Shown here piece after piece: positions 1,745-32,507 of a DNA stretch of 36,043 nucleotides. Source of the DNA: an uncultured Pelagibacteraceae bacterium (lineage in GTDB: Bacteria > Pseudomonadota > Alphaproteobacteria > Pelagibacterales > Pelagibacteraceae); contig CACFKJ010000007.1 of the NCBI GenBank assembly GCA_902566805.1, positions 1 to 36,043 on the forward strand, given 5' to 3'. The translations under genes were made by a program, and so were the position numbers. The notes under the pieces were generated by a model, which was not told the origin of the DNA, searched no databases, and saw only the letters and a program-made list of their open reading frames with translations. How positions within the stretch are numbered: position 1 is the first letter of the stretch; the number at the start of each line of letters is the position of its first letter.

Positions 1745-2530
1745 ATGATCAATGAATTAATACTTTTTATTCAATCACTCAAAAACCGCAATTTGTGGTA
1801 TGAATTAGCTCAAACAAAAATGAGAGCAAGATTTAATCGGACAGTTCTTGGTCCATTTTGGGAAATATTTGGTTCATTATTTCTATTGCTTCTTTTAGCA
1901 TTTTTATGGTCAAAATTATGGAATAAAAATTTTTTAGATTTTTTTACTTATTTATACGTAGGATTTAGTTTATGGAGAATAATTCTTTCGTCTGTAACTG
2001 ACGCAAATGGTTTATTTAGTATTACATATAATAGTCTTATAAAAAATATTTATATTCATCCTTTTGTTTTATGTATTGCATCAACTTATAAAAATTTAGT
2101 AACGTTACTTTTAAATTTACCACTAATTATAATAATCTTAATCATTAATGATCAAATTCACTTAATGTCTTTATTATATTTAATTTTATTTTTAATATTT
2201 TACTTTGTATCAGCAATTTGCGTAACATTTTTATTTAGTATTTTATGCTTAAAATTTAGAGACCTTGAACATACAATAAATGTCTTTTTTGGAATACTTT
2301 TCTTTTTTACTCCGATTATTTGGGAGGTAGATCAATTAGGTAGCAAATTGTTATTAATTCAACCAAATATTTTATACCATTATATTGAATTTTTTAGAGG
2401 AGGTCTAATAAATGGATCTGTGAACAGCTTGTCAATAATTTTAGTAATCATAACAACAGTTTTATTATTAATTTTATCACTATATCTATCGAAAAAATTT
2501 AAAAATAAATTAACATATTGGGTGGATTAA
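1745..2530 (+). CDS. wzm: ABC-2 type polysaccharide export permease (Wzm-like)
   Basis: 261 aa, about six hydrophobic segments, N-terminal MRARFNRTVLGPFWEIFGSLF typical of Wzm/KpsM/TagG permeases; followed directly by an ABC ATPase. Confidence 0.88.
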   Translation: MINELILFIQSLKNRNLWYELAQTKMRARFNRTVLGPFWEIFGSLFLLLLLAFLWSKLWNKNFLDFFTYLYVGFSLWRIILSSVTDANGLFSITYNSLIKNIYIHPFVLCIASTYKNLVTLLLNLPLIIIILIINDQIHLMSLLYLILFLIFYFVSAICVTFLFSILCLKFRDLEHTINVFFGILFFFTPIIWEVDQLGSKLLLIQPNILYHYIEFFRGGLINGSVNSLSIILVIITTVLLLILSLYLSKKFKNKLTYWVD

Positions 2531-3279
2531 TGGAAATTATAGTTAAAAATTTATCTTTAGCCTATAATGTTAAAAATTTAGATAGTAGTTTTTTAAGAAA
2601 AAGTTTAATAAAACAATTTTTTTCTAAATCAAAAAAAAAACTAGATCAAATTTGGGCCTTAAATAATTTGAATTTTAAATTGTCAAAAGGAGATCGCTTA
2701 GGTGTTATTGGATCTAATGGTTCAGGAAAAAGTACTCTAATTAAATGTTTGTCAAATATTTATAAACCCTCAGAGGGTTCTGAAGTCATTGTATCTGGAA
2801 AATTTTTACCTATAATTGAGCCGTGGTCATTATCTGAGCCAGCAGACTCTGTTGAAAATAATATAGTATTAATTGGACTTATTCTTGGTTTTGATAAAAA
2901 ATATATCCTGAATAATATTGATAACATTTTAAAATTTAGTGAGTTAGAGAATAAAAAAGATTATCAATTCTCTTCATTATCAACAGGAATGAAACTTAGA
3001 TTAATTTTTGCTATTGTTTTCTTATTAGAAACAGAAATATTTTTAATTGATGAATTTTTGACAACAGGTGATGAAAAATTTAGAAATAAAAGTTTTAAAC
3101 ATTTGATTGAAAAAACTCAAAATTCAATAACTGTAATATGTTCGCATGAAAGAAAGACAATAAAAGAATTTTGTAATAAAGTTTTAGTATTAGATAATGG
3201 AAAACAAGCTTACTTTGGAGATATAGATGAAGGATTTAGGAAATACGACGAAATTTTAATGAAAAAGGTGAACAGTTAA
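2530..3279 (+). CDS. wzt: ABC transporter ATP-binding protein, polysaccharide export (Wzt/KpsT-like, short form)
   Basis: Walker A GSNGSGKST, signature-like SSLSTGMKLRL, Walker B TEIFLIDEFLTTGDEKF. The ORF track starts at TTG 2518; the ATG at 2530 in a TAATG overlap with the permease stop is the likelier start. Confidence 0.9.
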   Translation: MEIIVKNLSLAYNVKNLDSSFLRKSLIKQFFSKSKKKLDQIWALNNLNFKLSKGDRLGVIGSNGSGKSTLIKCLSNIYKPSEGSEVIVSGKFLPIIEPWSLSEPADSVENNIVLIGLILGFDKKYILNNIDNILKFSELENKKDYQFSSLSTGMKLRLIFAIVFLLETEIFLIDEFLTTGDEKFRNKSFKHLIEKTQNSITVICSHERKTIKEFCNKVLVLDNGKQAYFGDIDEGFRKYDEILMKKVNS

Positions 3280-4265
3280 TGAAAGTCATTGTTACCGGAG
3301 GCGCAGGATTTATTGGAAGTCATTTAGTTGATAGACTTTTGAAAGATAAAAAAATAAAGAGCATTGTTATTTTAGATATTTTAAAAGCAGGAAAAAGAAA
3401 TATTAATCATCTAAGCAAAAATAAAAAAGTTTATGTATATAAAAAAGACGTAGCTAAAATAAATAAAAATGATAAATGTTTTAAAAACGCAGATTGTGTT
3501 TTTCATTTAGCTGCTATTGCAGATATAGTGCCATCTATAACTGATCCATCTGATTATTATAGTACAAATGTAACAGGGACTATAAATATACTTGAAGCCA
3601 TGAGGCATAATAATGTTAAAAATATCGTTTACGCTGCCTCATCCTCTTGTTATGGAATACCCAAAAATTATCCAACGACAGAAAATGAAAAAATTCAACT
3701 TAAATTTCCTTACGCTTTAACAAAATATATTGCCGAGGAAACAATTATACACTGGGCTGAAGTATATAAAATTAAATTTATTTCATTAAGATTATTTAAC
3801 GTATTCGGATTAAGATCTAGAACATCAGGTGCATATGGAGCTGTAATGGGAGTTTTTTTAAAACAAAAATTATCTAACAAACCTTTAACAATTGTTGGAA
3901 ATGGAAATCAAACAAGAGATTTTATTAATGTTAAAGATGTTGTTGAAGCTTTTTATAAGAGCATGAAATTAAAAAATAAAAATCACATTATTAACATTGG
4001 ATCATCTAGACCTATAAAAGTTAAAAAGTTGGCTAGAATGATAAGTAATAAATATACTTTTGTACCTAAACGACCCGGTGAACCGGATAAGAGTCATGCA
4101 AATATTAATAAAGCAAAAAAAATATTGGATTGGAGTCCAAAAGTTACTTTTGAAAATGGAGTAAAGGAATTATTAAAAAATATTCATTTTTGGAAAAATG
4201 CACCATTGTGGGATAAAAAAAGTATTACTAAAGCTACCAAAAAATGGTTTGAGCAATTAGGGTAA
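3279..4265 (+). CDS. NAD-dependent epimerase/dehydratase (extended SDR, UDP-glucose 4-epimerase-like)
   Basis: TGGAGFIGSH, SSSCYG, YALTK (YxxxK), SLRLFNVFG, GNGNQTRDFINVKDV. Confidence 0.9.
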   Translation: MKVIVTGGAGFIGSHLVDRLLKDKKIKSIVILDILKAGKRNINHLSKNKKVYVYKKDVAKINKNDKCFKNADCVFHLAAIADIVPSITDPSDYYSTNVTGTINILEAMRHNNVKNIVYAASSSCYGIPKNYPTTENEKIQLKFPYALTKYIAEETIIHWAEVYKIKFISLRLFNVFGLRSRTSGAYGAVMGVFLKQKLSNKPLTIVGNGNQTRDFINVKDVVEAFYKSMKLKNKNHIINIGSSRPIKVKKLARMISNKYTFVPKRPGEPDKSHANINKAKKILDWSPKVTFENGVKELLKNIHFWKNAPLWDKKSITKATKKWFEQLG

Positions 4266-4268
4266 ATT

Positions 4269-5330
4269 TTACTCAAAGTAAATAAACTCAAAATCTCCAG
4301 TATAACCAGAATTCATAAACATCCATTTCCAGGATTCGGTGTCGATCAACGTTTCGGCAGTTAAAGCCCAACATTGAAGATTAAAAAATTCTTTTTCATT
4401 TCTGAAAGATTCAACACATATGAACTTTTTCTTTCCAACTCTCTCAATTTCTTTAAGAGCTTGATTTAAGTTTTCTAGTTTAAGATTATGAAGAGTATTT
4501 ATTGATAATACTAGATCAAAATCATTATAATTAAATTTTAGTTTTTTATTTATATCGTAACAAATAATATTTTTTTTCACCTCCTTTTTGGCTTTCTTTT
4601 TTGCATACTTTGATATGTCTAAACCAACTATTTTAATTTTATTTAAAATCTTTCTTATTTCATATAAAAGAAATCCCTTACCGCATCCGATATCTAGTAT
4701 TTTAGAATAATTATTGAGATTATATTCTTTAATTAACTTTTTTGCTAAAGGTTCGTGATATCCTGGAAGGTATTTATATCCACCATAGCCGTATTTTCTG
4801 TTTCCATCCCAATAATCTTTTCCATATTTTTTAGATATTTTCATACAATGAATTTTTTTATATTTCATTCTTTCTAGATAATTTCTTTTAGTTTTTTTAT
4901 GGTTAATAGTTACAAAATTTTTTAATTTACCTATTTTGAACCTATTATTTTCTTTAAGCGAAAGTTTTTTTATTAAAAAAAGTTTTTCTATTCTGTTAAA
5001 ATCATTTTTATTTTGAGCAACTAAGTTTTCAACTACAAAATGCAATTCTTTTTTTTTTTTTAGTATTGATTTATATAAATTTAATCTAGCAGTATCTTGT
5101 TCTGGTAGTTGTAAAAAACTATAAAAAATAATTCCATCATAGTTATTAAGATTTTCAATTACTTCATTTAATATATAAATACTTTTTTTAAATGTATATT
5201 CAGTAGAGCTTAGCAACAAATTAAATCTTTTTATCCTACAATAATCTCTTAAAACTGTATTTTGTATATGCTGCGGAACCCTTTCATCAAAAAAAGGCCT
5301 GCTAAATATATACCCTTTTAAACTTTTCAT
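4269..5330 (-). CDS. LIC12192-like sporadic carbohydrate cluster domain fused to a class I SAM-dependent methyltransferase
   Basis: N-terminal KGYIFSRPFFDERVPQHIQNTVLRDYCR...YDGIIFYSFLQLP resembles the LIC12192 family (TIGR04323, from memory); C-terminal SKILDIGCGKGFLLYEI...IVGLDIS...FDLVLSINTLHNL is a Rossmann methyltransferase. Confidence 0.78.
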   Translation of the reverse strand: MKSLKGYIFSRPFFDERVPQHIQNTVLRDYCRIKRFNLLLSSTEYTFKKSIYILNEVIENLNNYDGIIFYSFLQLPEQDTARLNLYKSILKKKKELHFVVENLVAQNKNDFNRIEKLFLIKKLSLKENNRFKIGKLKNFVTINHKKTKRNYLERMKYKKIHCMKISKKYGKDYWDGNRKYGYGGYKYLPGYHEPLAKKLIKEYNLNNYSKILDIGCGKGFLLYEIRKILNKIKIVGLDISKYAKKKAKKEVKKNIICYDINKKLKFNYNDFDLVLSINTLHNLKLENLNQALKEIERVGKKKFICVESFRNEKEFFNLQCWALTAETLIDTESWKWMFMNSGYTGDFEFIYFE

Positions 5331-6109
5331 TTTTTAAATGGATACTTAAAATTTAAACCAATATCGGTCATAGGCCTTGTTGTTATGGGCACAAAAAACT
5401 CACCAATTTTTTTATCACCATAAGGTGAAAAAAGGCTTTTAAATCTACAGTTCATTGACCAGCGAGTTTCATTTTCTTTGTTAACAATATTTCCATGAGG
5501 CAATGCTTGATTAAAAATTAAACATTGACCATAATTCACTTTTAACCATTTTATTTTTTTTTTAACTAAATTAAAAATTTGTTTACTATTTGTAATTTGT
5601 TGATTTTTAATATCATAATTAAATCTGTTCATATATTTATTTTCAAGAATATACATAGATTTAGTTTTATAACAGTCAACTAATGGTATCCACAGATTGA
5701 TTTCATATGGAGAGTCTCCTGACCAAACATCTGAATGTATAGGAAGTAAAGAGCTATCGTCATTGGGAAATTGAATACTAAGATTTATATTTTTTTGCAT
5801 CATTAATTCATTACCAGCTAAAGTATACAAAGAATTTCTTGCTGTATTAAAATAATGATATCTAATCTTTTTATCCTTATTAATTTTATTTATTATATCA
5901 AGTCTAAATTCATTTAATTGTTTAGAAGATACATAATTATGAATTTTATTTAAATTTATGTTTTTTTTATTTAATATGAGGTTTGAATATTTAATAATCA
6001 AATCTTTGATATAATTTAGAGATCTTCTTTGTTCAATTTTAGAAATAATATAGCCGTTTTGTGAAAACTTCTTTGAATATATAATTTCTTCTTTTGATAA
6101 AAATTCCAT
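5327..6109 (-). CDS. 2OG-Fe(II) oxygenase-like protein (sporadic carbohydrate cluster / phytanoyl-CoA dioxygenase-like)
   Basis: LPIHSDVWSGDSPYEINLWIPLVDC (HxD) and LIFNQALPHGNIVNKENETRWSMNCRFKS (distal His and Arg); ATGA overlap with the downstream LIC12192-like gene. Confidence 0.75.
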   Translation of the reverse strand: MEFLSKEEIIYSKKFSQNGYIISKIEQRRSLNYIKDLIIKYSNLILNKKNINLNKIHNYVSSKQLNEFRLDIINKINKDKKIRYHYFNTARNSLYTLAGNELMMQKNINLSIQFPNDDSSLLPIHSDVWSGDSPYEINLWIPLVDCYKTKSMYILENKYMNRFNYDIKNQQITNSKQIFNLVKKKIKWLKVNYGQCLIFNQALPHGNIVNKENETRWSMNCRFKSLFSPYGDKKIGEFFVPITTRPMTDIGLNFKYPFKK

Positions 6110-6147
6110 ACTTACATTATATTTTTTAAATTATTTTAAGATATAAC

Positions 6148-6639
6148 TTAAAATTTTTTCTTTAAAGTTTTGTCAGTTTTTAAACTTACAAATGTTGGTC
6201 CATTTATTCCATATGTTTTTTTTACAATTTTATTAGTTTCTTTACTATTTTTAGGAAAGAAAGACTTGATGTTTTTGAATAAAGACATTAGTTTTTTTGC
6301 ATTTAGCTCACTGTGAGATGGTCCAAGAGTTGGATAGTCTGCAAATCCTACTAAATTTACATTTGCTTTTTGTTGATCTATATCAAGTTTAATTTGCTCA
6401 AAAGGTCTTTCTATTAAAAATGGTGTAATAGTATAAACCCAAGGCTTTAAGCCTTCCAAAGCCATTCCTGAAGCAACTCCAATAAGACTTTGTTCACAAA
6501 TACCTAAATTGTAAAATTTATCAGGATTATCTCTTCTAAAATCATCAAATATTCCATAACCTATATCTCCAACTAAAAGTACAACTTTTTTATCTTTCTT
6601 TGCAATCTCATTAATTATTTTTCCAAACTCTCTTCTCAT
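6148..6639 (-). CDS. Transketolase C-terminal subunit, pyrimidine-binding domain only
   Basis: 163 aa: VVLLVGDIGYGIF..., YNLGICEQSLIGVASGMALEGLKPWVYTITPFLIERPFEQIKLD, ending GPTFVSLKTDK; ATGA overlap with the N-terminal subunit gene. Confidence 0.85.
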   Translation of the reverse strand: MRREFGKIINEIAKKDKKVVLLVGDIGYGIFDDFRRDNPDKFYNLGICEQSLIGVASGMALEGLKPWVYTITPFLIERPFEQIKLDIDQQKANVNLVGFADYPTLGPSHSELNAKKLMSLFKNIKSFFPKNSKETNKIVKKTYGINGPTFVSLKTDKTLKKKF

Positions 6640-7382
6640 TTTAACAATCGCTTTCTTCCAATTTCAATCTCATGACCTTGTAGTTTTCTGGCGTGCCAAA
6701 TTGGATCATTTTCAAATTCTTTTATACCCTTTCCTTTAATTGTATTAGCAATAATAACTGTAGGTTTATTCTTAGTTTTTTTGCTTAGAGCGGGAATTAA
6801 ATTTTTAAATGAATGACCATCTCTAATTGAAATACAATTACAATTAAAAGATTTTATTTTATTTGACAGGCTATCAAGTGGCAACGCATCTTTTAATTTA
6901 GAAAGAGCTTGAATTTTATTATAATCAATAATTATAATTAAATTATCCAATTTTTGTTTAGTAGCTATTAAAAGTGACTCCCAAGTAGTACCCTCTTGGC
7001 ATTCACCATCACTTATTAATACAAATATTTTGCCTTTTTTTTCCCTTTTTTTTCTTGCAAAAGCCATACCTGTTGCAATAGGCAATCCATGGCCCAAACT
7101 TCCAGTTGTACAGAATATACCGTTTTTTTCATCCTTTTCTAAATGGGTGGTAAGCTTTGTCTTAAATCCTTTAGCTCTTAATATTAAACACAATGGATAA
7201 GATGAATGAGATTTACTAATTATAAATTTATCGTTTTTTTTTAAAATTTTTTCATAAAGTGAAATTAATATTTCAATACAAGAAAAACTACCTCCTAGAT
7301 GTGCCTCACCTTTTTTAATAAATGCGTTAAAAGTGTCAATTCTCAATTTTTTTGCTTTTTCTTTAAGTTTAATCGAATTCAT
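6636..7382 (-). CDS. Transketolase N-terminal (TPP-binding) subunit
   Basis: GSLGHGLPIATGMAFARK, LISDGECQEGTTWESLLIATKQKLDNLIIIIDYNKIQ (TPP motif), ANTIKGKGIKEFENDPIWHAR. Confidence 0.88.
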   Translation of the reverse strand: MNSIKLKEKAKKLRIDTFNAFIKKGEAHLGGSFSCIEILISLYEKILKKNDKFIISKSHSSYPLCLILRAKGFKTKLTTHLEKDEKNGIFCTTGSLGHGLPIATGMAFARKKREKKGKIFVLISDGECQEGTTWESLLIATKQKLDNLIIIIDYNKIQALSKLKDALPLDSLSNKIKSFNCNCISIRDGHSFKNLIPALSKKTKNKPTVIIANTIKGKGIKEFENDPIWHARKLQGHEIEIGRKRLLK

Positions 7383-7383
7383 T

Positions 7384-8361
7384 TTAGACCATATTAATAT
7401 TTTGCATTTTTTTAATGTTAAAATAATTTATATCATCTAGACAATTATTTAATATTTTTTTTTCAAATGCGTTTTTTAAATCTTTTACAGCATCTTCAAT
7501 ATTATAATTTGCTTTAAACCCAAGTTCGTTCCATATTTTTTTTGATGAAACATGGTATGATCTATTATCATCAGTTGGTACATGTTTAATAATTACATCA
7601 TTTCCAATTACTGACTTAACACTAGATGCTAACTCATTAACAGTCTTATTTTCAAAACCTACATTGAAAATTTTACCATTAATTTTTTCAGCGTCTATTT
7701 CAATAAATAGTTCATATGCTCTAACCATATCTTTAATATGAATATTTGGTCTAAGTTGGTCACCACCAAAAACAGAAATTTCCCTTTTATGATATGCTAA
7801 ATTGCTTAAAATATTGACGACCAAATCTAACCTTTGTCTTGGAGAATATCCACAAACAGTAGCAGGTCTTATTACAGAGGCAATAAAGTCATCTGATTTA
7901 TATTTAAAAAGTATTTTTTCACATTTAGCTTTAAATTTTGAGTAGTCAGTTAGTGGCTCTAAAGACATATCCTCGCTTACGTTTTTTTCTTCTTTAATAC
8001 CATAAACAGAGGATGATGATGCATAAACAAATCTTTTTACCCCTGCATTTTTTGAATTAGCAACAAGTGGCTCAAATGAGTCCAAATTTATTTCTTTACC
8101 TAATTTTGGATTTAATTCAAAACTTGGGTCATTTGAAATACATGCAAGATGTATTACTTGATCTTGTCCTTCTAAACTCTTTTTCAATAAAACGTTATCT
8201 CTCATATCTCCTTTGATTATTTTTAGGTTATTATGTTGTTTTAAAGTTTCTCCATAAATAAAAAGATCAAAAACAGTCACGTTATAGTTCTTTGATAAAA
8301 GATAAGGTGTAAGAACTGAACCAACATATCCCGCTCCACCTGTTATGAAAATATTTTTCAT
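7384..8361 (-). CDS. NAD-dependent epimerase/dehydratase (extended SDR)
   Basis: TGGAGYVGSVL, SSSSVYG, YSKFK, SVIRPATVCGYSPRQRLDLVVN, HIKDMVRAY. Confidence 0.88.
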   Translation of the reverse strand: MKNIFITGGAGYVGSVLTPYLLSKNYNVTVFDLFIYGETLKQHNNLKIIKGDMRDNVLLKKSLEGQDQVIHLACISNDPSFELNPKLGKEINLDSFEPLVANSKNAGVKRFVYASSSSVYGIKEEKNVSEDMSLEPLTDYSKFKAKCEKILFKYKSDDFIASVIRPATVCGYSPRQRLDLVVNILSNLAYHKREISVFGGDQLRPNIHIKDMVRAYELFIEIDAEKINGKIFNVGFENKTVNELASSVKSVIGNDVIIKHVPTDDNRSYHVSSKKIWNELGFKANYNIEDAVKDLKNAFEKKILNNCLDDINYFNIKKMQNINMV

Positions 8362-9059
8362 TTTTTAAACATCTTTGCTATTTGTTCTTGTCCAACTAAC
8401 CTTAAGCCTCCATCTACTGGAATTATAACTCCAGTTATATAAGATGATTTTTCAGAAGTTAAAAATTCTGCAAGGTTTGCAATATCTATTGAATTTCCCA
8501 TCCTTCCAATCGGAGTAATTTTTTCAATTAATTTTCTGTCTCTATTATTTTTTTTACTAAAAAATTTTTTATTTTCAGGTTTAAATATTTTAGTTGGTTG
8601 AATACAATTTACTCTAATATTTTGTTTGCCTAATTTGTAGGCATAATATTTTGTCAATGTTTCTAAAGCTCCTCTTGTAAAATGATAAGTGTCATTTTGA
8701 TCACCAATAATAGTAGTACTTGCTATTGAACCCAAAATAACTATTGATGAGTTATTGTTTTTAAATTTCGATATTTTAATTAAATTATTTGTAGCTTTTA
8801 AAACTACATTATATTCTTCATCACTATCATTTCCTCTATATCTTTGAGCAAAAATCAGGTTATCTATTTTTTCTTTCTTAAAAAAATTCTTAATTAAATT
8901 AATTCCATCTTTTTTTGTGATATCAGCGCTAATAAAATTTTTTTTTTTAATTTTAGATCTGCAAATACAAAAAACTATATCTCCTCTTTTTTTAATAGTT
9001 TCATAAATACTTTTCCCTATTCCTCTGTAACCACCAATTATGAGTGTCTTTTTTTTCAT
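8358..9059 (-). CDS. SDR family oxidoreductase with atypical YxxxR active site
   Basis: IIGGYRGIGKSI, VILGSIAST, YHFTRGALETLTKYYAYKLGKQNIRVNCIQPTKI, YITGVIIPVDGG. Arg sits where the catalytic Lys is expected. Confidence 0.85.
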   Translation of the reverse strand: MKKKTLIIGGYRGIGKSIYETIKKRGDIVFCICRSKIKKKNFISADITKKDGINLIKNFFKKEKIDNLIFAQRYRGNDSDEEYNVVLKATNNLIKISKFKNNNSSIVILGSIASTTIIGDQNDTYHFTRGALETLTKYYAYKLGKQNIRVNCIQPTKIFKPENKKFFSKKNNRDRKLIEKITPIGRMGNSIDIANLAEFLTSEKSSYITGVIIPVDGGLRLVGQEQIAKMFKK

Positions 9060-10273
9060 TTCAAAATTTTATATTTAGGAAGTGGTACAATAAATTTTGT
9101 TTTTTTACTAAATAATTTTTTATTTCTGCTTATAATTTGTTGTGCATATCTCCATGCAAAAATTATTATATAATCTGCATTGAGTTTTTTTAGATTTTTA
9201 GGATCTAAAACCTTTATTTGAGTGCCAGGCATAAATAAATCAAATCTTCTTCTCTCATTATCAAAAATATATTTTATCTTATTATTAATCTCAAAATCAT
9301 ATACTAATGTAGTGGTACCAACCGAAGCTCCAAAGCCAAAGATTCTTAAACCTTTATCGGAACATTTTTTTATAATTTTTATAATTTTATTTTTATTACC
9401 TATATTAAGTTTTTGTAATTTTTTAAATTTAAAATTCATATTTTTTAATATGGAATTTTCTTGTTTTATTAATTTTTTTAATTTTTTACTTTCCGTATTA
9501 AATTTTTTTTGGAATATGAGTCTTAAAGATCCTCCTTTAACTTTTAAAAACTCTGCTTCTTTAAGATATAAATTATATTTTTTTGAGAACTCTTTAAATG
9601 TATTTAATGAAAAATATGACAAATGCTCATGATATACATTATCTACTAAATTATTTTTTAAAATTCCATGCAAACAAAAAGTTTCAATAATTAGAAAACC
9701 ATTATCTGAGATAATTTGTTTAATTCCCTTAAACACATCATCTAAATTATCGATATTTGCAATTACATTGTTGGCAATTACCACATCAAAACTACCAAAT
9801 TTTTTTAATATTTTTTTACTTAATTTAAAATTAAATAAACCTTTTATATTTTTAATCTTTTTATTTTTGAATAAATGTGCAGCAGGATCTACACCTACCA
9901 CCATTTTGCTTTTATTATAAAAGTAATTTAATAAAGTTCCATCATTGCTTCCAATTTCTAAAATTTTACTTTTTTTAGTTATTATATTTTTTTTAATAAG
10001 TTTTTCTCCTAAACTATAAAAATGTTTTTGAAGCCCTAATGAAGTTTTTGTTACGTAAAGATATTCTCCATAAACCTTTTTAGGATCAATAACATTAGAT
10101 AATTGTACAAATTTACAATTTGAACATTTAATTAGATTTAGATCATACAATTTCGGTTTAATTGGTTTTTTAGTATAATCATCACCAATAGGATTTTTAG
10201 CAAATGAATAAATTTTGTTTAATTTCTTGCTTTTGCATAACCTGCATGATTTTTTATTATAAGATTTTTCCAT
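9056..10273 (-). CDS. Class I SAM-dependent sugar C-methyltransferase (Zn-binding N-domain + methyltransferase + C-terminal Rossmann domain)
   Basis: CRLCKSKK...KCSNCKF Zn site, ILEIGSNDGTLLNYF, DNVYHEHLSYFS, GFGASVGTTTLVYDF. Layout as in TylC3/TcaB9-type sugar C3-methyltransferases. Confidence 0.86.
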   Translation of the reverse strand: MEKSYNKKSCRLCKSKKLNKIYSFAKNPIGDDYTKKPIKPKLYDLNLIKCSNCKFVQLSNVIDPKKVYGEYLYVTKTSLGLQKHFYSLGEKLIKKNIITKKSKILEIGSNDGTLLNYFYNKSKMVVGVDPAAHLFKNKKIKNIKGLFNFKLSKKILKKFGSFDVVIANNVIANIDNLDDVFKGIKQIISDNGFLIIETFCLHGILKNNLVDNVYHEHLSYFSLNTFKEFSKKYNLYLKEAEFLKVKGGSLRLIFQKKFNTESKKLKKLIKQENSILKNMNFKFKKLQKLNIGNKNKIIKIIKKCSDKGLRIFGFGASVGTTTLVYDFEINNKIKYIFDNERRRFDLFMPGTQIKVLDPKNLKKLNADYIIIFAWRYAQQIISRNKKLFSKKTKFIVPLPKYKILK

Positions 10274-10275
10274 TC

Positions 10276-10662
10276 TTAAAATTTAGACAGTCTATCTCTT
10301 TGATGAAATTCAACAATATTTCCTTCAAAATCTTTTGTGAAAAATTGAAGAATTTTATCAGTTTTACCTCTTTTAATAGCAAATTTATTATTAAATTTTT
10401 TTTTATTCAAATATTTTAAATTAGAGACTTCAAAACAAATATGTTTAAAATGATTATTTCTATTACTAAAATTAATTTTTTTTTTAGTTTTAAAAAATTC
10501 TAAAAAAGTATTGTTTTTTGAACTTAAAAAATAACCATAAAGATCATTATTTTCATTTCTGAATTCATGTACTATTTTTAAACCAAGTTTTTTTACATAG
10601 AAATTCTTTACTTTACTTAAAGAATTACTCATAAGTGAAATATGGGATAAATTTTTTATCAT
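10276..10662 (-). CDS. VOC (glyoxalase/bleomycin-resistance) family protein
   Basis: LSHISLMSNSLSKVKNFYVKKLGLKIV...HICFEVSNL...FFTKDFEGNIVEFHQ. Confidence 0.8.
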   Translation of the reverse strand: MIKNLSHISLMSNSLSKVKNFYVKKLGLKIVHEFRNENNDLYGYFLSSKNNTFLEFFKTKKKINFSNRNNHFKHICFEVSNLKYLNKKKFNNKFAIKRGKTDKILQFFTKDFEGNIVEFHQRDRLSKF

Positions 10663-10663
10663 T

Positions 10664-12181
10664 TTAAGAAAGAATATGTTCTAATTCTTTTAATAGTTTG
10701 ACTTTGCTGATAGATTCTTTATTTCCAATTGTGTTCACTGATTGTGCTGCTGCTAATGAGGATATTAATAAAGAAAGATTAATATCTACTTTATTATATA
10801 GACAAATAGACATTATTGATAACATCGCATCACCAGCACCTATTTTGTCTAGTGCATTTTTGGAAAATGCTTCAGTAAAATAAAACTTATTATTTTTTTT
10901 TTCATAAAGAATAGCACCTGAAAGACCACGTGTTACAACTAAATATTTAATATTTTGATTTTTTGAAAGTTCTTTAATTAAAATTTCGATTTTTTTATCC
11001 TTTGTTCGCATTTCGTGTCGCAGCTCAATTTCATTTATAATCATGAAATCTATTGATCGATAATCTTTTAAAGTATGAAATCCAATGTTTGCTGCATTTA
11101 CTTGTACATTTACTGCAATAAATTTAGACTTTTTAATTAAATCTTTTCTGAAATCTTTTGATATCATTCCGTGACCGTAATCAGATAATATAGTAAGATT
11201 TGAATTTTTAGATAATACCTTAAACTTTTTTTTTAATAGTATTTCTTGTTTTTTCGATAATAATTCATCGTTTAATGAATATACACCTAATACTTTTGAT
11301 TTAGTAACCTCATCCAAAAACCTTTTTTTTAAAATAGTTGGTGAATTTTCTTTTGGTAATAAATAATAAGACGTATTTTTTGGTATATTTTTTTTTATAA
11401 AGGCAATATTATCTTTTTTTTCTCCCACAATTGATAAAAATTTTTGTTTCTCACAAAATTCCGCAGTATGTTTACTTATTGCTCCAGCTCCTCCAAAATA
11501 AGTTTCATTAAAACTATCTCTTAAAACAAGCATTGGTTCTTTTCCTGATTTTCCCAAAGCCTCACAAAAAAAATATTGATCTATAATTGTTTCACCAACT
11601 ATGATTGGTACTGACTTTTTAAAATTATTTATAATTTTTTTTATTTTATCGAAATTATATTTTTTTTTTATTTTATTAATTAATGTTTCCTGATTTTGAC
11701 TAAATATATTTAACTGTTTATTAATTAAATTGCTTGAACTATATTTTTCAGATTTTGTTATAAAGAGTTTGCCAGAATTTTTTTCAACTTCTTTTCTCTC
11801 GAGAAGAATTTTTTTTGTCATATCTTGGCTAGATATTTTATAGTCAGGTCCTTTAAAGTAGAATCTGGGTTTAATTTTATTTATGGTTTCAACGGCTGAC
11901 TCTTTATTTGATAATACTACGTAATCTATAGACTCTAAATTTGATAAAGCCTCCATTCTTTGATATTGATCAAATACCGGTCTACCTGGCCCTTTAGAAA
12001 CATATTTATCTTCAGTAACTGAGACAACTAATATGTCACAATTTTTTTTGGCTTCCTTGAAATGATTAATATGTCCCAAATGCAATAAATCAAAAACTCC
12101 ATGGCACAAACCAACTTTTTTTTTACTACCTGATAATTTATAAACCAAGTTTTTAAGGTTAAATATTTTTTTATTTATCAT
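10664..12181 (-). CDS. Bifunctional nucleotidylyltransferase / PfkB-family sugar kinase, HldE-like with inverted domain order
   Basis: N-terminal GLCHGVFDLLHLGHINHFKEAKK (GxFDxxHxGH); C-terminal PfkB with FGGAGAISKHTAEF, TILSDYGHGMI, INEIELR, DKIGAGDAML. Confidence 0.85.
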   Translation of the reverse strand: MINKKIFNLKNLVYKLSGSKKKVGLCHGVFDLLHLGHINHFKEAKKNCDILVVSVTEDKYVSKGPGRPVFDQYQRMEALSNLESIDYVVLSNKESAVETINKIKPRFYFKGPDYKISSQDMTKKILLERKEVEKNSGKLFITKSEKYSSSNLINKQLNIFSQNQETLINKIKKKYNFDKIKKIINNFKKSVPIIVGETIIDQYFFCEALGKSGKEPMLVLRDSFNETYFGGAGAISKHTAEFCEKQKFLSIVGEKKDNIAFIKKNIPKNTSYYLLPKENSPTILKKRFLDEVTKSKVLGVYSLNDELLSKKQEILLKKKFKVLSKNSNLTILSDYGHGMISKDFRKDLIKKSKFIAVNVQVNAANIGFHTLKDYRSIDFMIINEIELRHEMRTKDKKIEILIKELSKNQNIKYLVVTRGLSGAILYEKKNNKFYFTEAFSKNALDKIGAGDAMLSIMSICLYNKVDINLSLLISSLAAAQSVNTIGNKESISKVKLLKELEHILS

Positions 12182-12264: not shown

Positions 12265-12318
12265 ATGAATATTCAAGTTAATTCAACATTAATTGAACTG
12301 GGTACAAACGCTAGATGA
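12265..12318 (+). other. Putative 17-codon mini-ORF (MNIQVNSTLIELGTNAR) in ATGA overlap with the radical SAM gene
   Basis: ATG at 12265, TGA at 12316-12318 overlapping the ATG at 12315-12317 of the radical SAM ORF. No homology or ribosome-binding evidence. Confidence 0.3.
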
Positions 12319-13538
12319 TTTATAATTCTCCATTTGAAGTCAAGGCTCAATCATATGAGCAAATAGAAAAATTTAAAAAAGACGGTGTTACAGTCTTCGG
12401 AACAGGAAATTTTGGATCTCTTATCAAGTCAGCACTAGCACAAAACAATATTATGGTGAATTATTTTGTAGACAATAATTTTAATAATTGGGGTAAAAAA
12501 TTTGAAGAAGTAGAAATTATTTCTGCCAAAGATATTTTAAAAAAAAATCCAGACTCTAACGTTCTTATAGCATCATTAAATTTTAGATATCTGAAAAGAC
12601 AACTTACAGACTTAGGAATAAAAAATTTTTATGATGTTGATTTTTTATTAAACAACTTTGATATAACAAAAATAAATACTAAATGGTCTAAAGATAGATG
12701 TAAGGTCCAATTAGACTTATATAATTATTCTGTTAATGCAACCAGAGATAAGGAAAGTTTGAAAGTAAATAGCATCGATTTAGTTTTAACGGAAAAATGC
12801 TCATTAAAATGTAAGAATTGCTCAAATCTGATGCAATATTATGAACGTCCAATTGATAACGATTTAGATGTAATGTTAAAATCATTCGACAATTTCCTTT
12901 CAGCAGTTGATTATTGCTACGAAGTAAGAATGATTGGCGGAGAACCGCTAATGTATAAAAATATTGATAAGGTAATTGAAAAAGTTTTATCAAAAAATAA
13001 CGTTGGAAATATAATTATCTATACAAATGGAACCATTGTGCCAAGGGGTGATAAAATTAATATTTTCAAAAATCCTAAAATATATTTTAAAATTTCAAAT
13101 TATGGTTCACACTCAAGAAATGTTGACAAATTAGAAAAAGTTTTATCCGAAAATAATATTCATTTTATTACGGAAAGAGTAACTACTTGGCAAGACTGTG
13201 CTAGAGTTGAGAAATTTGATAGAACTGAAAAAGTAAATAAAGAAATATTTGGAAATTGTTGTGTTAATGAAACTTTAACAATGTTACATGGTAAACTTTA
13301 TTTATGTCCTTACTCAGCACACGTTGAAAATCTAAAAGTAATTAAACCTAAAGTAAAAGAGCATGTGGAACTTTTTAATGAAAAAAATAAAAAAAATTTA
13401 AAATCTGAAATAAGAAATTTATATTTTGGAAAAGAATTCTTGGAAGCATGCAATATATGCAATGGAAGAGATCACAATGTTGCATCTATACCAGCTGCAG
13501 AACAAACTAAAACCTTTTTAAACTTAAACAAAATTTAA
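12315..13538 (+). CDS. Radical SAM protein with N-terminal Rossmann-like domain and C-terminal Cys-rich (SPASM-like) region
   Basis: LVLTEKCSLKCKNCSNLM (CxxxCxxC), MIGGEPLMYKNID, later GNCCVNETL, YLCPYSAH and CNICNG. N-terminal GVTVFGTGNFGSLIKSALAQNNIMVNYFVDNNF. Confidence 0.88.
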   Translation: MIYNSPFEVKAQSYEQIEKFKKDGVTVFGTGNFGSLIKSALAQNNIMVNYFVDNNFNNWGKKFEEVEIISAKDILKKNPDSNVLIASLNFRYLKRQLTDLGIKNFYDVDFLLNNFDITKINTKWSKDRCKVQLDLYNYSVNATRDKESLKVNSIDLVLTEKCSLKCKNCSNLMQYYERPIDNDLDVMLKSFDNFLSAVDYCYEVRMIGGEPLMYKNIDKVIEKVLSKNNVGNIIIYTNGTIVPRGDKINIFKNPKIYFKISNYGSHSRNVDKLEKVLSENNIHFITERVTTWQDCARVEKFDRTEKVNKEIFGNCCVNETLTMLHGKLYLCPYSAHVENLKVIKPKVKEHVELFNEKNKKNLKSEIRNLYFGKEFLEACNICNGRDHNVASIPAAEQTKTFLNLNKI

Positions 13539-14779: not shown

Positions 14780-15757
14780 ATGATAGTTTCAAAAACACCC
14801 CTTAGAGTAAGTTTTTTTGGCGGAGGAACTGATTTTCCAGAATATTTTAGAAATAATAATTCTAGAGTAATAGGGACTGCTATAAATAAATATATATATT
14901 TATTTCAAAACAAATTTTATTCAAGCTTATTTGATCACCAGCTTAGACTTTTTTATAAGGAAGTTGAATTTGTAAAAGATGTTAGAAAAATAAAGCACAG
15001 TGTTTTCAAAAATATTCTTAAAAAAGAAAATGTTTTTAAAGATATTGAAATACACGCATCATCAGAATTACCAGGCTTTGTAGGCCTAGGCACATCATCA
15101 GCATTTACAGTAGGTTTATTAAATTTAATAAATTTTTATAAATACAAAAAAAAATTAACAAAAAAAATTTTATCTGAAAAATCCATTTATTTTGAAAGAA
15201 ATATTCTAAAAGAAAACGTAGGATATCAAGATCAAATATTAGCAGCACACGGAGGCTTAAATTCAATTGAATTTTATGATGACACTTTTAAAATAAAGAA
15301 ATTAGAACCAAAGTTTTCATTAAATAAATTTAGAAGAAATTTAATATTAATTTATACTGGAATACAAAGAACAGCATCTCATGTAGAACAAAAAAAAATT
15401 AAAAAAATAAAAAAAAATTTATCTTATTTAAATAACATAACTGATATTTCTAATGAAGCTTTCAATTATTTTCAAAAATCAAAGCATACAGATTTTTTTG
15501 GTAAATTATTGCATGAAACATGGTTACAAAAAAAGAAACTTCATAAATCTGTTTCAAATATTGTAATCAATAATATTTATGATAAAGCAATTGCATCTGG
15601 AGCCTCTGGAGGAAAATTGTTAGGTGCTGGAGCTGGAGGTTTTATATTATTCTATGTCAAAGAAAGTAATAAAAAAAAATTTTTTAAAGCATTTGATAAG
15701 AATAGGTATATTACTTTTGATTTTGAAAAAAATGGAAGCCAAATTATAAAAATTTGA
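14780..15757 (+). CDS. hddA: GHMP-family sugar kinase, HddA-like (D-glycero-alpha-D-manno-heptose 7-phosphate kinase-like)
   Basis: TPLRVSFFGGGTDFPEYF, ELPGFVGLGTSSAFTVGLLNL, GYQDQILAAHGGLN, GASGGKLLGAGAGGFILFY. Confidence 0.82.
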   Translation: MIVSKTPLRVSFFGGGTDFPEYFRNNNSRVIGTAINKYIYLFQNKFYSSLFDHQLRLFYKEVEFVKDVRKIKHSVFKNILKKENVFKDIEIHASSELPGFVGLGTSSAFTVGLLNLINFYKYKKKLTKKILSEKSIYFERNILKENVGYQDQILAAHGGLNSIEFYDDTFKIKKLEPKFSLNKFRRNLILIYTGIQRTASHVEQKKIKKIKKNLSYLNNITDISNEAFNYFQKSKHTDFFGKLLHETWLQKKKLHKSVSNIVINNIYDKAIASGASGGKLLGAGAGGFILFYVKESNKKKFFKAFDKNRYITFDFEKNGSQIIKI

Positions 15758-15761
15758 AATT

Positions 15762-16697
15762 ATGAATATATTAGTAACTGGAGGAGCTGGATACATTGGT
15801 TCTGTATTAGTCCCAATTCTTATAAATAATAATTTTAATGTCACAGTATTAGATAATTTTTTATTTAAACAAAAAAGTCTTAATGAAATTAAAAATGATC
15901 ATCAATTAAAAATCGTTAAAGGTGATGTTAGAGATAAAAGTACTATTAAAGATTTAGTTGCAAAAAACGATATAATTATACCATTGGCTGCCCTTGTGGG
16001 GGCACCTTTATGTGACATAAAACCTAAAGAAGCAAAAGAAGTAAATTTAGATAGCATATTTTTATTAAAATCAATGCTTTCAAAAAATCAGAAAGTGATT
16101 TTACCAGTTTCTAACTCTGGATATGGAATTGGAAAATCCGGAGAATTTTGTACTGAAGAATCACCACTTAACCCAATTTCCTTATATGGACAAACCAAGG
16201 TTCAATCAGAAAGTATTATTATGGAAAGAGAAAATTCTATTTCATTTCGGTTAGCAACTGTTTTTGGAATGTCTCCAAGAATGAGAATTGATTTGTTAGT
16301 GAATTATTTTGTAAATAAAGCATTAACAGAAAAAAAAATTCAAATTTTTGAAGGTCATTTTAAGAGAAATTATGTTCACATAAAAGATGTTGCAAATGTA
16401 TTTTTATTTACTATCAATAATTTTGAAAAAATGAAAAATAATACCTATAATTTTGGACTTGAAAATGCAAATTTTTCAAAAATTGAATTGGCAGAAAAAA
16501 TTAAAAAATATCTTAATAATTTTGAGATACAGATTTCTGAATTTGGAAAAGATCCAGATAAGAGAGATTATGTAGTTTCTAATAAAAAAATTCTCTCTAC
16601 TGGATATAAATTTATAGAAGACTTGGACTCTGGGATTCAAGAATTAATAAAAGAAATACCAAAATTATCAAAAAGTGAAAACTATTCAAATGTCTAA
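15762..16697 (+). CDS. NAD-dependent epimerase/dehydratase (extended SDR)
   Basis: TGGAGYIGSVLVPIL, YGQTK, SFRLATVFGMSPRMRIDLLVN, YVHIKDVANVF. Similar in layout to the 7384-8361 protein. Confidence 0.88.
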   Translation: MNILVTGGAGYIGSVLVPILINNNFNVTVLDNFLFKQKSLNEIKNDHQLKIVKGDVRDKSTIKDLVAKNDIIIPLAALVGAPLCDIKPKEAKEVNLDSIFLLKSMLSKNQKVILPVSNSGYGIGKSGEFCTEESPLNPISLYGQTKVQSESIIMERENSISFRLATVFGMSPRMRIDLLVNYFVNKALTEKKIQIFEGHFKRNYVHIKDVANVFLFTINNFEKMKNNTYNFGLENANFSKIELAEKIKKYLNNFEIQISEFGKDPDKRDYVVSNKKILSTGYKFIEDLDSGIQELIKEIPKLSKSENYSNV

Positions 16698-17889
16698 CAA
16701 AAATTGTATTCAATGTGGAAGTAGAGATTTAAAAAAATTAATTGACTACGGTTACCATCCTTGGTGCAACGATTTTAAAAAAGATAAAACTAATAGATAT
16801 CCTTTAAAAGTTAAAATTTGTAAAAATTGTTCAGGTGCTCAATTGACTTATATTTTAAGTAAAAAAAAAATGTTTTTGCAAAATTATTACTTGAGCGGTG
16901 ACAACAAAGAGTTAATTAAACATTTCGAAAATTTTTCATATAAAATTAAAAAGAAATATGTTTCAACAAAGAAAAATCCTAGAAGCATTTTAGATATTGG
17001 ATCAAATGATGGATCTTTCTTAAAATTTTTTATGAATGATTGGGATGTATTGGGTATAGACCCTTCAATTAATGCAAAAGAAATATCATTAAAAAATAAA
17101 ATCAAAACTATTAAATCTTTTTTTAATTATGATTTGGCAAAAAAAATAGGAAAAGAATTTGACATTATTCATGCTTCTGGTGTTTTTTTTCACATAGAAG
17201 AACTAATAAGCATTACGAAAGGAATAAAAATATTACTTAAAAGCAAAGGAACTCTAATAATACAATTTATTTATTTAAGTGAACTAATATTTAAAAAACA
17301 TTTTGATCAGATTTATCATGAGCATTTGTATTATTATAATTTAAAATCATTACAAATTTTGTTGGAAAGGTTTGATTTGGAAATTTTTCATGCTGAAAAA
17401 AGTAAAATTCATGGAGGGTCAATGATTGCCCATATTGCACACAAGGGTGTTAAACAAAAATCAACACAATTTTTAAAACTACTAAAATCTGAAAAAAAAA
17501 ATAATATTAAATTTTGGAAAGAGGCAAATTTATTTGAAAATAAAATTATTAATTTAAAAAAAAAATTTAATGAAAAAATTAATAATTTGAAAAATAAAGG
17601 TTATAAAATTTCAATCTTGGGTGTTCCGGCAAAAGGATCAACAGTAGTTAATTTTTTTGATATAAATTCTAAACAAATTGATAAATCATATGATATTAAC
17701 CAATTTAAAATTGGAAATAATATTCCAGGCACTGATATTAAAATACTTAATGAAAATAAAATTAAAAATATAAAAAAAAAACAAATTTTTTTAATATTAA
17801 GTTGGAATTATAAAAATACTATAATAAAAAAATTTAAAAAAAAATTTGGTAAAAAATTTAAATATTTCTTTCCATATAGTAATAAATGA
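16675..17889 (+). CDS. Class I SAM-dependent sugar C-methyltransferase
   Basis: CIQCGSRDL...KICKNCSGAQL Zn site, SILDIGSNDGSFLKFF, DQIYHEHLYYYN, GVPAKGSTVVNFF. Similar in layout to the 9056-10273 protein. Confidence 0.87.
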   Translation: MKTIQMSNKNCIQCGSRDLKKLIDYGYHPWCNDFKKDKTNRYPLKVKICKNCSGAQLTYILSKKKMFLQNYYLSGDNKELIKHFENFSYKIKKKYVSTKKNPRSILDIGSNDGSFLKFFMNDWDVLGIDPSINAKEISLKNKIKTIKSFFNYDLAKKIGKEFDIIHASGVFFHIEELISITKGIKILLKSKGTLIIQFIYLSELIFKKHFDQIYHEHLYYYNLKSLQILLERFDLEIFHAEKSKIHGGSMIAHIAHKGVKQKSTQFLKLLKSEKKNNIKFWKEANLFENKIINLKKKFNEKINNLKNKGYKISILGVPAKGSTVVNFFDINSKQIDKSYDINQFKIGNNIPGTDIKILNENKIKNIKKKQIFLILSWNYKNTIIKKFKKKFGKKFKYFFPYSNK

Positions 17890-24601: not shown

Positions 24602-25289
24602 ACAAATAGTATTACTAAATGGAGGCTTTGGCAAAAGAGTTAAATCTGTTTCTAAAAATAAACCAAAATGTCTAATTAAATTCAATAATAAAACTTTTTT
24701 ACATAGACAATTGATGTTTTTTAAAAAAAATGGAATAAAAGATGTAATAATTTGCGTAGGATATAAGAGTAGATATATTTATTCAGAAATAGAAAATATA
24801 AAAATAAAAAAACTAAATATTAAGATTTCTAAAGAAAATTTTCCATTAGGAACCGGTGGAGCAATTAAAAATTGTCAAAAATATTTAGATGATAATTTTT
24901 TTGTAACGTATGGAGATTCCTGGCTTAATTTAAAATTTAATAATATAAGAAAGAAATTTTATCATCAAAAAAAGAATAATATGATTTGTGTTATTAGTAA
25001 AAATAAAATAATTGATCATAAACCAAATATTTTTATTAAAAATAAAAAAATTAAAAGTTATGAAAAAAATAATACTTTTTTCAATTATATTGATTATGGA
25101 TTAATGATTTTAAGTGTTAAAAATATAAAAAAAATTAAAAAAAAAAAATTTGACTTAGATTTTTTAATAAAAAAGCTAATTCAAAGTAATTCAATATCTA
25201 TTTATAAAGTTAGAAAGAAATTCTATGAAATTGGTTCTTTACAAGGTATAAAGGAATTTAAAAAATCATTTAATTATGAAATATCTTAA
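24585..25289 (+). CDS. hddC: Sugar-phosphate nucleotidyltransferase, HddC-like (heptose 1-phosphate guanylyltransferase-like)
   Basis: IVLLNGGFGKRVKSVSKNKPKCLIKFNNKTFLHRQL, NFPLGTGGAIKNCQ, FVTYGDSWLN; adjacent to a GmhA-like SIS gene. Confidence 0.8.
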   Translation: MKKKIKQIVLLNGGFGKRVKSVSKNKPKCLIKFNNKTFLHRQLMFFKKNGIKDVIICVGYKSRYIYSEIENIKIKKLNIKISKENFPLGTGGAIKNCQKYLDDNFFVTYGDSWLNLKFNNIRKKFYHQKKNNMICVISKNKIIDHKPNIFIKNKKIKSYEKNNTFFNYIDYGLMILSVKNIKKIKKKKFDLDFLIKKLIQSNSISIYKVRKKFYEIGSLQGIKEFKKSFNYEIS

Positions 25290-25860
25290 AAAACATTTAA
25301 AAGATCATATCCAAATTGGTAATTTGATTGATTTAAGATCAGTTAATAAAATATTAAATTTATTGAAAAAATTAAAAAAAAATAAAGGCAGATTGTTCAT
25401 ATTGGGTGTTGGTGGAAGTGCTGGAAATGCTTCTCATGCTGTAAATGACTTTAGAAAACTTTGTGGTATTGAAGCATATGGACCCGCTGATAATGTGTCC
25501 GAGCTTACTGCAAGAACAAATGATGATGGATGGGAAAATGTTTTTTCTAAATGGTTAGAAACAAGTAATTTGTCAAAAAAAGATATGCTTTTATTTTTTT
25601 CTGTTGGCGGGGGATCTTTAGATCGAAGAATAAGTGTAAACTTAATTAAAGCAGCAAGATATGGAAAAAAAAAAAATAGCAAGATAGCAAGTGTTATAGG
25701 AAGAAAAGAAGGTTATTTAAATAAAATATCCCATGCTTGCTGCGTTGTTCCAAATGTAAATAAACATTCCATAACACCACATACAGAGACATATCAAGTA
25801 TTTATATGGCATATGCTTGTGTCTCATCCAGAGCTGCAAATAAAAAAAACAGTTTGGTAA
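25276..25860 (+). CDS. gmhA: SIS-domain sugar isomerase, GmhA-like (sedoheptulose 7-phosphate isomerase-like)
   Basis: LFILGVGGSAGNASHAVNDFRKLCGIEAYGPADNVSELTARTNDDGWENVF...TPHTETYQVFIWHMLVSHPEL. Confidence 0.83.
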   Translation: MKYLKKHLKDHIQIGNLIDLRSVNKILNLLKKLKKNKGRLFILGVGGSAGNASHAVNDFRKLCGIEAYGPADNVSELTARTNDDGWENVFSKWLETSNLSKKDMLLFFSVGGGSLDRRISVNLIKAARYGKKKNSKIASVIGRKEGYLNKISHACCVVPNVNKHSITPHTETYQVFIWHMLVSHPELQIKKTVW

Positions 25861-31808: not shown

Positions 31809-32507
31809 ATGAAAATAAAAATTTACGCTGATGGAGCAAATAAAAAAGACATATTATATTTTAATAACCAGGCCGATATCTCGGGACTAACAACAAATCC
31901 TTCATTAATGAGAAAATCTGGAATTTCAAATTATAAAAATTTTTCCATTGATATTTTAAAAAAAGTTAAAAAAAAACCTATTTCCTTTGAGGTTTTTGCT
32001 GACACTTTTAAAGATATGTATAGTCAAGCAAAAACAATCTCTTCATGGGCTTCGAATGTTTATGTGAAAATCCCGATTTCAAATACAAAAGGATTAAGTT
32101 CAAAAAAATTGATTAAAATTTTATCTAATCAAAACGTTAAATTAAATATAACTGCCATTTTTACTAAATCACAAATAAATTTAGTATTTAAAAATTTAAA
32201 AAAAACTACACCAGCAATAATATCAATATTTGCTGGCAGAATAGCTGATACTGGTAGAGATCCAATACATTTAGTTGAGTATGCAAGTAAATTATTTAAA
32301 AAAAATTCAAAACATAAAATATTATGGGCGAGTACAAGAGAAGTGCTGAATATAATTCATGCAGAAAAAGCTGGAGCTGACATTATTACCGTGCCCACTG
32401 GCATACTAAAAAAAATGAAATTGATAAATAAAAATTTAAATATGTATTCTTTGGAAACTGTGAGAGAATTTTATAAGGATGCAAAAGCAGCAAAATATAA
32501 AATTTAA
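31809..32507 (+). CDS. Transaldolase / fructose-6-phosphate aldolase family protein
   Basis: KIYADGANKKDI, ISGLTTNPSLMRKSG, NVYVKIPISNTKG (Schiff-base Lys), ISIFAGRIADTGRDP, ILWASTREVLNI. Confidence 0.88.
   Translation: MKIKIYADGANKKDILYFNNQADISGLTTNPSLMRKSGISNYKNFSIDILKKVKKKPISFEVFADTFKDMYSQAKTISSWASNVYVKIPISNTKGLSSKKLIKILSNQNVKLNITAIFTKSQINLVFKNLKKTTPAIISIFAGRIADTGRDPIHLVEYASKLFKKNSKHKILWASTREVLNIIHAEKAGADIITVPTGILKKMKLINKNLNMYSLETVREFYKDAKAAKYKI

Follow-up and report, generated by a model that had tools for sequence, protein, structure and literature searches.

A sugar gene cluster with a split transketolase of apparently remodelled acceptor channel may serve the branching of heptose-type surface sugars

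The window analysed here is a 36,043-nucleotide stretch from an uncultured Pelagibacteraceae bacterium (positions 1 to 36,043 of contig CACFKJ010000007.1, assembly GCA_902566805.1), with a G+C content of ~23%; the assembly comprises 51 contigs and 0.9 Mb, the window being its contig C7. Its minus strand carries, at 4269 to 12181, a block of nine genes that includes a split transketolase, an Fe(II)/2-oxoglutarate (2OG) oxygenase and a TIGR04323 (LIC12192, hereafter LIC) protein. We tentatively propose, at close to an even chance, that a dedicated two-carbon transferase encoded by the cluster adds a branch to, or lengthens, an activated sugar, probably of heptose type and oxidised at C4, that is destined for a surface glycan. 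Every reaction of this pathway is inferred from homology, residue patterns and co-occurrence. The block had first been described, from its letters alone, as a "sporadic carbohydrate cluster" of LIC12192 type built around a transketolase. This original prediction is well supported as regards families and neighbourhoods, and all nine open reading frames lie at the coordinates it gave:

4269 to 5330, minus strand: TIGR04323 (LIC12192) domain (residues ~1-125) fused to a class I S-adenosylmethionine (SAM) methyltransferase (~190-345); TIGR04323, Methyltransf_31/11
5327 to 6109, minus strand: Fe(II)/2OG oxygenase; TIGR04324, alignment of relatives, double-stranded beta-helix oxygenase fold
6148 to 6639, minus strand: transketolase pyrimidine-binding half (TK-C), short form; PF02779 68.4 bits, nearest solved structure 6yaj
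6636 to 7382, minus strand: transketolase thiamine diphosphate (ThDP)-binding N half (TK-N); PF00456 84.7 bits, nearest solved structure 6yak
7384 to 8361, minus strand: core epimerase/dehydrogenase; PF01370, 6vo6 at 146 bits
8358 to 9059, minus strand: SDR oxidoreductase, accessory; PF13561
9056 to 10273, minus strand: sugar C-methyltransferase, accessory; Methyltransf_13/23/14, nearest solved structure 4rv9
10276 to 10662, minus strand: VOC (glyoxalase-like) protein, accessory; PF00903
10664 to 12181, minus strand: HldE-like protein, nucleotidyltransferase (N) and PfkB kinase (C), first gene of the block; rfaE_dom_II at residues 16-155, rfaE_dom_I at 184-488

The nearest solved structures of both transketolase halves belong to a split transketolase. 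In TK-N, all four donor-site histidines and the ThDP and metal residues are conserved, with H26, H66, H100, D155, E160, N185 and H261 (E. coli numbers, carried over via the 6yak and 6yaj alignments) invariant in 67 of 67 cluster sequences. TK-C keeps the catalytic Glu411 and His473 in 71 of 72. Ser385, His461 and Asp469, which in transketolases bind sugar-phosphate substrates by their phosphate and hydroxyl groups, are found in none of the 72 cluster sequences, as against 24 of 24 ordinary transketolases, the host's own included; an alternative alignment put one Ser at 385, making that single position slightly alignment-dependent. The position of Arg520 is occupied by Lys or Arg in long forms of TK-C and is neutral in short forms. 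Because the catalytic residues are kept while Ser385, His461 and Asp469 are replaced, the two-carbon transfer machinery appears to be retained and the acceptor channel rebuilt. The signature, newly found here, clearly separates cluster transketolases from ordinary ones. The same genome also has genes for a DXS and for an intact transketolase of ordinary type.

The pair had been described as transketolase "N and C halves". The split is real, but the supposed C half, 163 aa long, consists of the pyrimidine-binding domain alone, and the transketolase C-terminal domain is absent. Such short forms (163-167 aa) occur in the window and in 8 other genomes, and their equal length across these nine rules out a truncated or frameshifted gene. 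Long forms, mostly of 300-310 aa, are found in 63 loci, with the C-terminal domain present in the one checked.

To place the block among its relatives, we surveyed 96 loci (numbered with L below), not all of them independent: 80 obtained by searching the genome collection with the 2OG protein, 3 viral contigs and 13 further SAR11-family loci. The first 80 span Alpha-, Beta- and Gammaproteobacteria, Cyanobacteria, Actinomycetota, Myxococcales and others. The 2OG protein is present in 96 of 96 by construction. It is joined by the LIC protein in 95 loci, the cluster methyltransferase in 89, TK-C in 71, TK-N in 67, the core epimerase/dehydrogenase (at least 43% identity, with orthologues at 43-68%) in 60, the HldE-like kinase in 59 and a GalE-like epimerase in 57. 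The arrangement is also regular: in the first locus set, the LIC gene directly follows the 2OG gene in all 82 loci carrying both, and TK-C closely precedes the 2OG gene in 50 of 60. By a rough estimate, because a genome holds a few transketolase-like genes, a few per cent of 20-kb stretches would contain one by chance. These counts bear out the prediction that the two families recur elsewhere together with sugar genes and both parts of a transketolase.

Profile searches confirmed the two name-giving families, with 126.7 bits for TIGR04323 on the 4269-5330 protein (cut-off 55) and 325.5 bits for TIGR04324 on the 5327-6109 protein (cut-off 150). TIGR04323 has one copy in the genome of the window, and neither family gave a match in 14 control genomes. 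The TIGR04324 cut-off is exceeded in 25 of 297 genomes of the host family and 7 of 398 of the sampled phylum, which fits the term "sporadic". In the genome collection scan, the nearest relatives of the 2OG gene come from uncultured Pelagibacteraceae; a comparison of its protein with named plasmid and phage records gave no match.

The survey also distinguishes the core of the cluster from its additions. VOC, C-methyltransferase and SDR genes are present in 4, 25 and 11 loci, with SDR and C-methyltransferase together in 8 of the 96 and VOC and C-methyltransferase together in 4; these three form an accessory cassette. The predicted membership of nine genes therefore holds with two amendments: three of them are accessory, and a plus-strand epimerase at 3279-4265 had been overlooked. 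Fusion of LIC and methyltransferase, correctly recognised in the window, is a minority state shared with the SAR11-type loci L024, L025 and L028, the two being separate genes elsewhere; in L149 the two matches also abut. This SAR11 locus is the nearest full match, with the same nine-gene order, an inserted aminotransferase gene and 56-78% identity. A minimal operon is seen in L153, where a GalE-like epimerase comes first, followed by HldE-like, dehydrogenase, TK-N, TK-C, 2OG, LIC and methyltransferase genes. Many proteobacterial and actinobacterial loci carry a fusion of ~540 aa with an APH-like part supported by profile and a HAD-like part recognised by eye, which the window lacks. Pairs resembling the E1 alpha and beta subunits of pyruvate dehydrogenase occur in L024, L025, L039, L054, L093, L147, L152 and L156, several of them adjoining the 2OG gene. 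The SAR11 loci L028 (1-943 and 10001-11142), L151 and L157 have another 2OG-type gene or 2OG-LIC pair ~5-10 kb away from the first.

One of the viral contigs shows the module in a phage. L104 (IMG/VR) is a phage fragment with a DnaB-type helicase, a terminase large subunit (155 bits) and a portal protein (101.6 bits), and the module occupies L104:3505-14657 on this tailed-phage contig, with a near-copy in L105. Its core is flanked by a terminase-small-like gene, recognised by eye and lacking a PHROG match, and by the gene of the terminase large subunit. Enclosed there are a GalE-like epimerase, a lone nucleotidyltransferase, a GmhA-like isomerase, a dehydrogenase, a methyltransferase and an HNH endonuclease, together with TK-N, TK-C, 2OG, LIC and the cluster methyltransferase. 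A lone PfkB kinase lies just past the terminase, and the HldE-like functions are thus on two separate genes. Because the phage carries the core between its terminase genes, with the kinase just after, the core set appears to move as a unit. A family-2 glycosyltransferase is encoded downstream in phage (L129:2947-3966). A GT9 heptosyltransferase at L129:4843-6486 was suspected by eye and not upheld by Pfam.

In the 2OG protein, the HxD motif (H125-D127) and the distal H205 are invariant in 31 aligned sequences, with R216 or R222 also conserved; Foldseek returned 427 matches at E <= 0.001, the top ones being Fe/2OG oxygenases. Both domains expected of the HldE-like protein are present; the order implied by the name is not, since the nucleotidyltransferase precedes the kinase, the reverse of HldE, as it does in the relatives. 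In addition to this inversion, the protein scores 171.5 bits as HldE, below the cut-off of 521. The core dehydrogenase has as its closest solved structures 6vo6 and 6vo8, a likeness of homology only, which we take to be those of Cj1427, a GDP-heptose C4-dehydrogenase. Cj1427 is the C. jejuni enzyme of that activity (PMC10680097). For the C-methyltransferase, the closest solved structure is that of D-mycarose 3-C-methyltransferase (161.6 bits). The other predicted gene assignments were upheld by Pfam and NCBIfam.

An unexpected likeness emerged for the TIGR04323 domain. An AlphaFold2 model of this N-terminal domain, built on a 48-sequence alignment, has a pLDDT of 96.2 and a pTM of 0.89. Foldseek ranked serine recombinase catalytic domains best, with probability 1.00 and above all other folds (TP901-1 integrase 3bvp at E 4.7e-5; serine integrases at TMq 0.75-0.76). 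The Pfam matches include a weak one to Pox_F16 (best E 0.013), and poxvirus F16 is described as an inactivated serine recombinase (PMC4304020). Alignment to resolvases with hhalign was in the correct register and weak (P 0.01, with unrelated families at P 0.075 or worse); a tie drawn from sequence alone is weak, and the claim is based on the predicted fold. TIGR04323 is thus predicted to be recombinase-like in fold, a relationship newly found here. Its invariant or nearly invariant residues are G6, Y7, R11, Q23, N24, E44, P76, R82 and E101, while equivalents of the recombinase catalytic Ser10 and Arg8/68/71, assigned by secondary structure and eye, are not conserved. Because the conserved residues differ from the recombinase set, the domain is very probably not a functional recombinase. 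It shares the predicted fold with serine recombinases, but has no DNA-binding domain and lies in sugar loci, where it was probably exapted to bind the sugar intermediate or to catalyse a step on it. The second LIC copy of L028 has diverged at the conserved N-terminal motif.

From these assignments the following route can be drawn. The HldE-like protein would activate a heptose-type sugar to a nucleoside diphosphate (NDP)-sugar. The Cj1427-like dehydrogenase would then produce a 4-keto intermediate, with the GalE-like partner setting the stereochemistry, as their relatives suggest. The split transketolase may use this keto-sugar, in place of an aldose phosphate, as the acceptor of a hydroxyacetyl unit; the branched product would then be finished by the 2OG oxygenase, the methyltransferase and the TIGR04323 protein. 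In the window, the C-methyltransferase, SDR and VOC proteins may further contribute a C-methyl branch, a ketone reduction and perhaps an epimerisation. There are precedents on paper: split-gene transketolases have been proposed to move hydroxyacetyl onto keto-sugars in miharamycin and amipurimycin (PMC12247030), and the AviB1/AviB2 complex to add acetyl branches (PMC4753412). The most specific form of the proposal, a ketone-accepting split transketolase, pared down to two domains in the window, that puts a hydroxyacetyl branch on an NDP-keto-heptose with a recombinase-derived helper, in a route mobile with phage, seems to us possible but doubtful. The earlier idea of a branched or chain-extended sugar gains backing from the transketolase residue pattern, and should still be read as conjecture.

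Several observations weigh against branching. No link leads from the TIGR04323 fold to a sugar ligand. The DXS likewise lacks H461 and D469, and the residue loss alone is therefore compatible with a phosphorylated substrate; equally, with these residues lost, phosphate could be bound in another way. In about one locus in four no transketolase is seen within ~10 kb, and the enzyme is therefore not obligatory. Nor are the E1 pairs a clean replacement for it: the first five E1 loci lack a transketolase (P ~0.001), but the SAR11 loci L147 and L156 have both, and strict substitution was rejected. Finally, GmhA-like and HldE-like partners suit chain extension equally well. In this main rival, the transketolase would yield an unusual ketose or ketose phosphate, to be converted into an unbranched NDP-heptose or NDP-octose by a GmhA-like isomerase, a kinase and a nucleotidyltransferase. 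All four functions are found in phage L104, GmhA-like genes are present in about 30 of the 96 loci, and the window adds a transaldolase gene abutting a heptose-kinase-like gene as well as GmhB- and HddC-like genes. Chain extension is nonetheless unlikely in our view, given the loss of the sugar-phosphate-holding residues in all 72 cluster transketolases and the normal transketolase already in the genome. The same two points disfavour a plain supply of sedoheptulose-7-phosphate.

A different ThDP reaction would account for the remodelled substrate channel and for the absence of the C-terminal domain from the short form in 9 genomes. The two subunits could act, for example, as a decarboxylase or a DXS-like enzyme giving a small precursor, and the make-up of the short form resembles that of two-domain ThDP decarboxylases. 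Retention of the four transketolase donor-site histidines and H473, together with split transketolases as the closest solved relatives, makes this quite improbable. Least probable of all, and largely refuted by the neighbourhood survey, is an ordinary O-antigen operon in which common sugar genes came together by chance, with the transketolase merely raising sedoheptulose-7-phosphate for heptose. The window is indeed a surface-polysaccharide region rich in common sugar genes; however, the co-occurrence is conserved across phyla and in phage, and the sugar-phosphate residues are lost.

With the NCBIfam "sporadic carbohydrate cluster" the window shares both adjacent families above cut-off, the split transketolase and the HldE-like and epimerase neighbours, while differing from the usual form in its LIC-methyltransferase fusion, short transketolase subunit and VOC/C-methyltransferase/SDR insert. 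The miharamycin and amipurimycin systems, likened here by description and not by sequence, also place a two-gene transketolase beside sugar-nucleotide oxidoreductases; they comprise 13 sequences from Streptomyces antibiotic clusters (PMC12247030), whereas the present genes lie in surface-glycan loci of many phyla. According to this 2025 review, keto-sugar-acting split transketolases have been proposed only for those 13 sequences and never assayed (PMC12247030). AviB1/AviB2, Pau11/Pau12 and YerE share the idea of a ThDP enzyme adding a two-carbon branch to a keto-sugar (PMC4753412), but belong to other ThDP subfamilies and use pyruvate, not a ketose, as donor; E1-type pairs are present in 8 of the 96 loci. 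Enzymes of AviB1/AviB2 or YerE type have been put forward for acetyl-branched octoses in antibiotics and O-antigens (PMC4753412).

Homologues of all five C. jejuni GDP-heptose modification proteins (GmhA, HddA, GmhB, HddC, Cj1427) are encoded in the window, whose core dehydrogenase is a more distant Cj1427 homologue than the much closer product of 15762-16697. We know of no 2OG oxygenase or LIC protein that belongs to the C. jejuni pathway. The paper describing that pathway mentions no transketolase (PMC10680097). TIGR04323 and TIGR04324 are named families for which our literature search found neither a paper nor a description of function. The present analysis adds ~70 split transketolases with a distinguishing residue signature, in surface-glycan loci of many phyla. 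The pocket signature and the TIGR04323 fold make an uncharacterised cluster directly testable with small proteins. If the proposal is true, the module would be a new route to branched surface sugars, and both the reuse of a recombinase fold in sugar metabolism and the carriage of such a pathway by phage would be new.

Returning to the layout of the block, the predicted single operon is likely, because the junctions overlap by 4 nt (methyltransferase/2OG, TK-C/TK-N, epimerase/SDR, SDR/C-methyltransferase) or leave 1-2 nt (TK-N/epimerase, C-methyltransferase/VOC, VOC/HldE-like), the widest spacing, of 38 nt, separating the 2OG gene from TK-C. The block begins at 12181, where a radical-SAM gene diverges from it, and at its far end 3 nt separate it from the epimerase gene that runs towards it. 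No Rfam match was found. Three further genes of the window are associated with the block:

3279 to 4265, plus strand: GalE-like epimerase, conserved tenth member; 56% identity to the family adjoining 2OG in L028
15762 to 16697, plus strand: close Cj1427-type sugar-nucleotide dehydrogenase, associated and not core; 6vo6 at 328 bits, E 4e-97
25276 to 25860, plus strand: GmhA-like SIS isomerase, a presumed pathway member; E 3e-12 to the GmhA-like family of the relatives, SIS_2 25.4 bits, just below the cut-off of 27

HddA-, HddC- and GmhB-like genes are present as well, and because they accompany the Cj1427-type dehydrogenase and the GmhA-like gene, the window very probably also makes GDP-heptose, judging by gene content. 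At 14780-17889, consecutive genes encode an HddA-like kinase, the close Cj1427-type dehydrogenase and a second methyltransferase-like protein (a C-methyltransferase by eye); together they probably form a GDP-4-keto-heptose branch within this locus. At 31809-33484, a gene for a transaldolase (280.4 bits for TIGR02134, with a cut-off of 281.95) abuts, at its end, the gene of an HddA-like heptose-7-phosphate kinase, which suggests a private supply of sedoheptulose-7-phosphate. The divergent radical-SAM protein (12315-13538) has a relative of 35% identity encoded between the methyltransferase and 2OG genes of L039. Beside the block, at 1745-3279, lie the permease and ATPase genes of a Wzm/Wzt-like ABC exporter, recognised by eye, a pair expected for O-antigen or capsule export.

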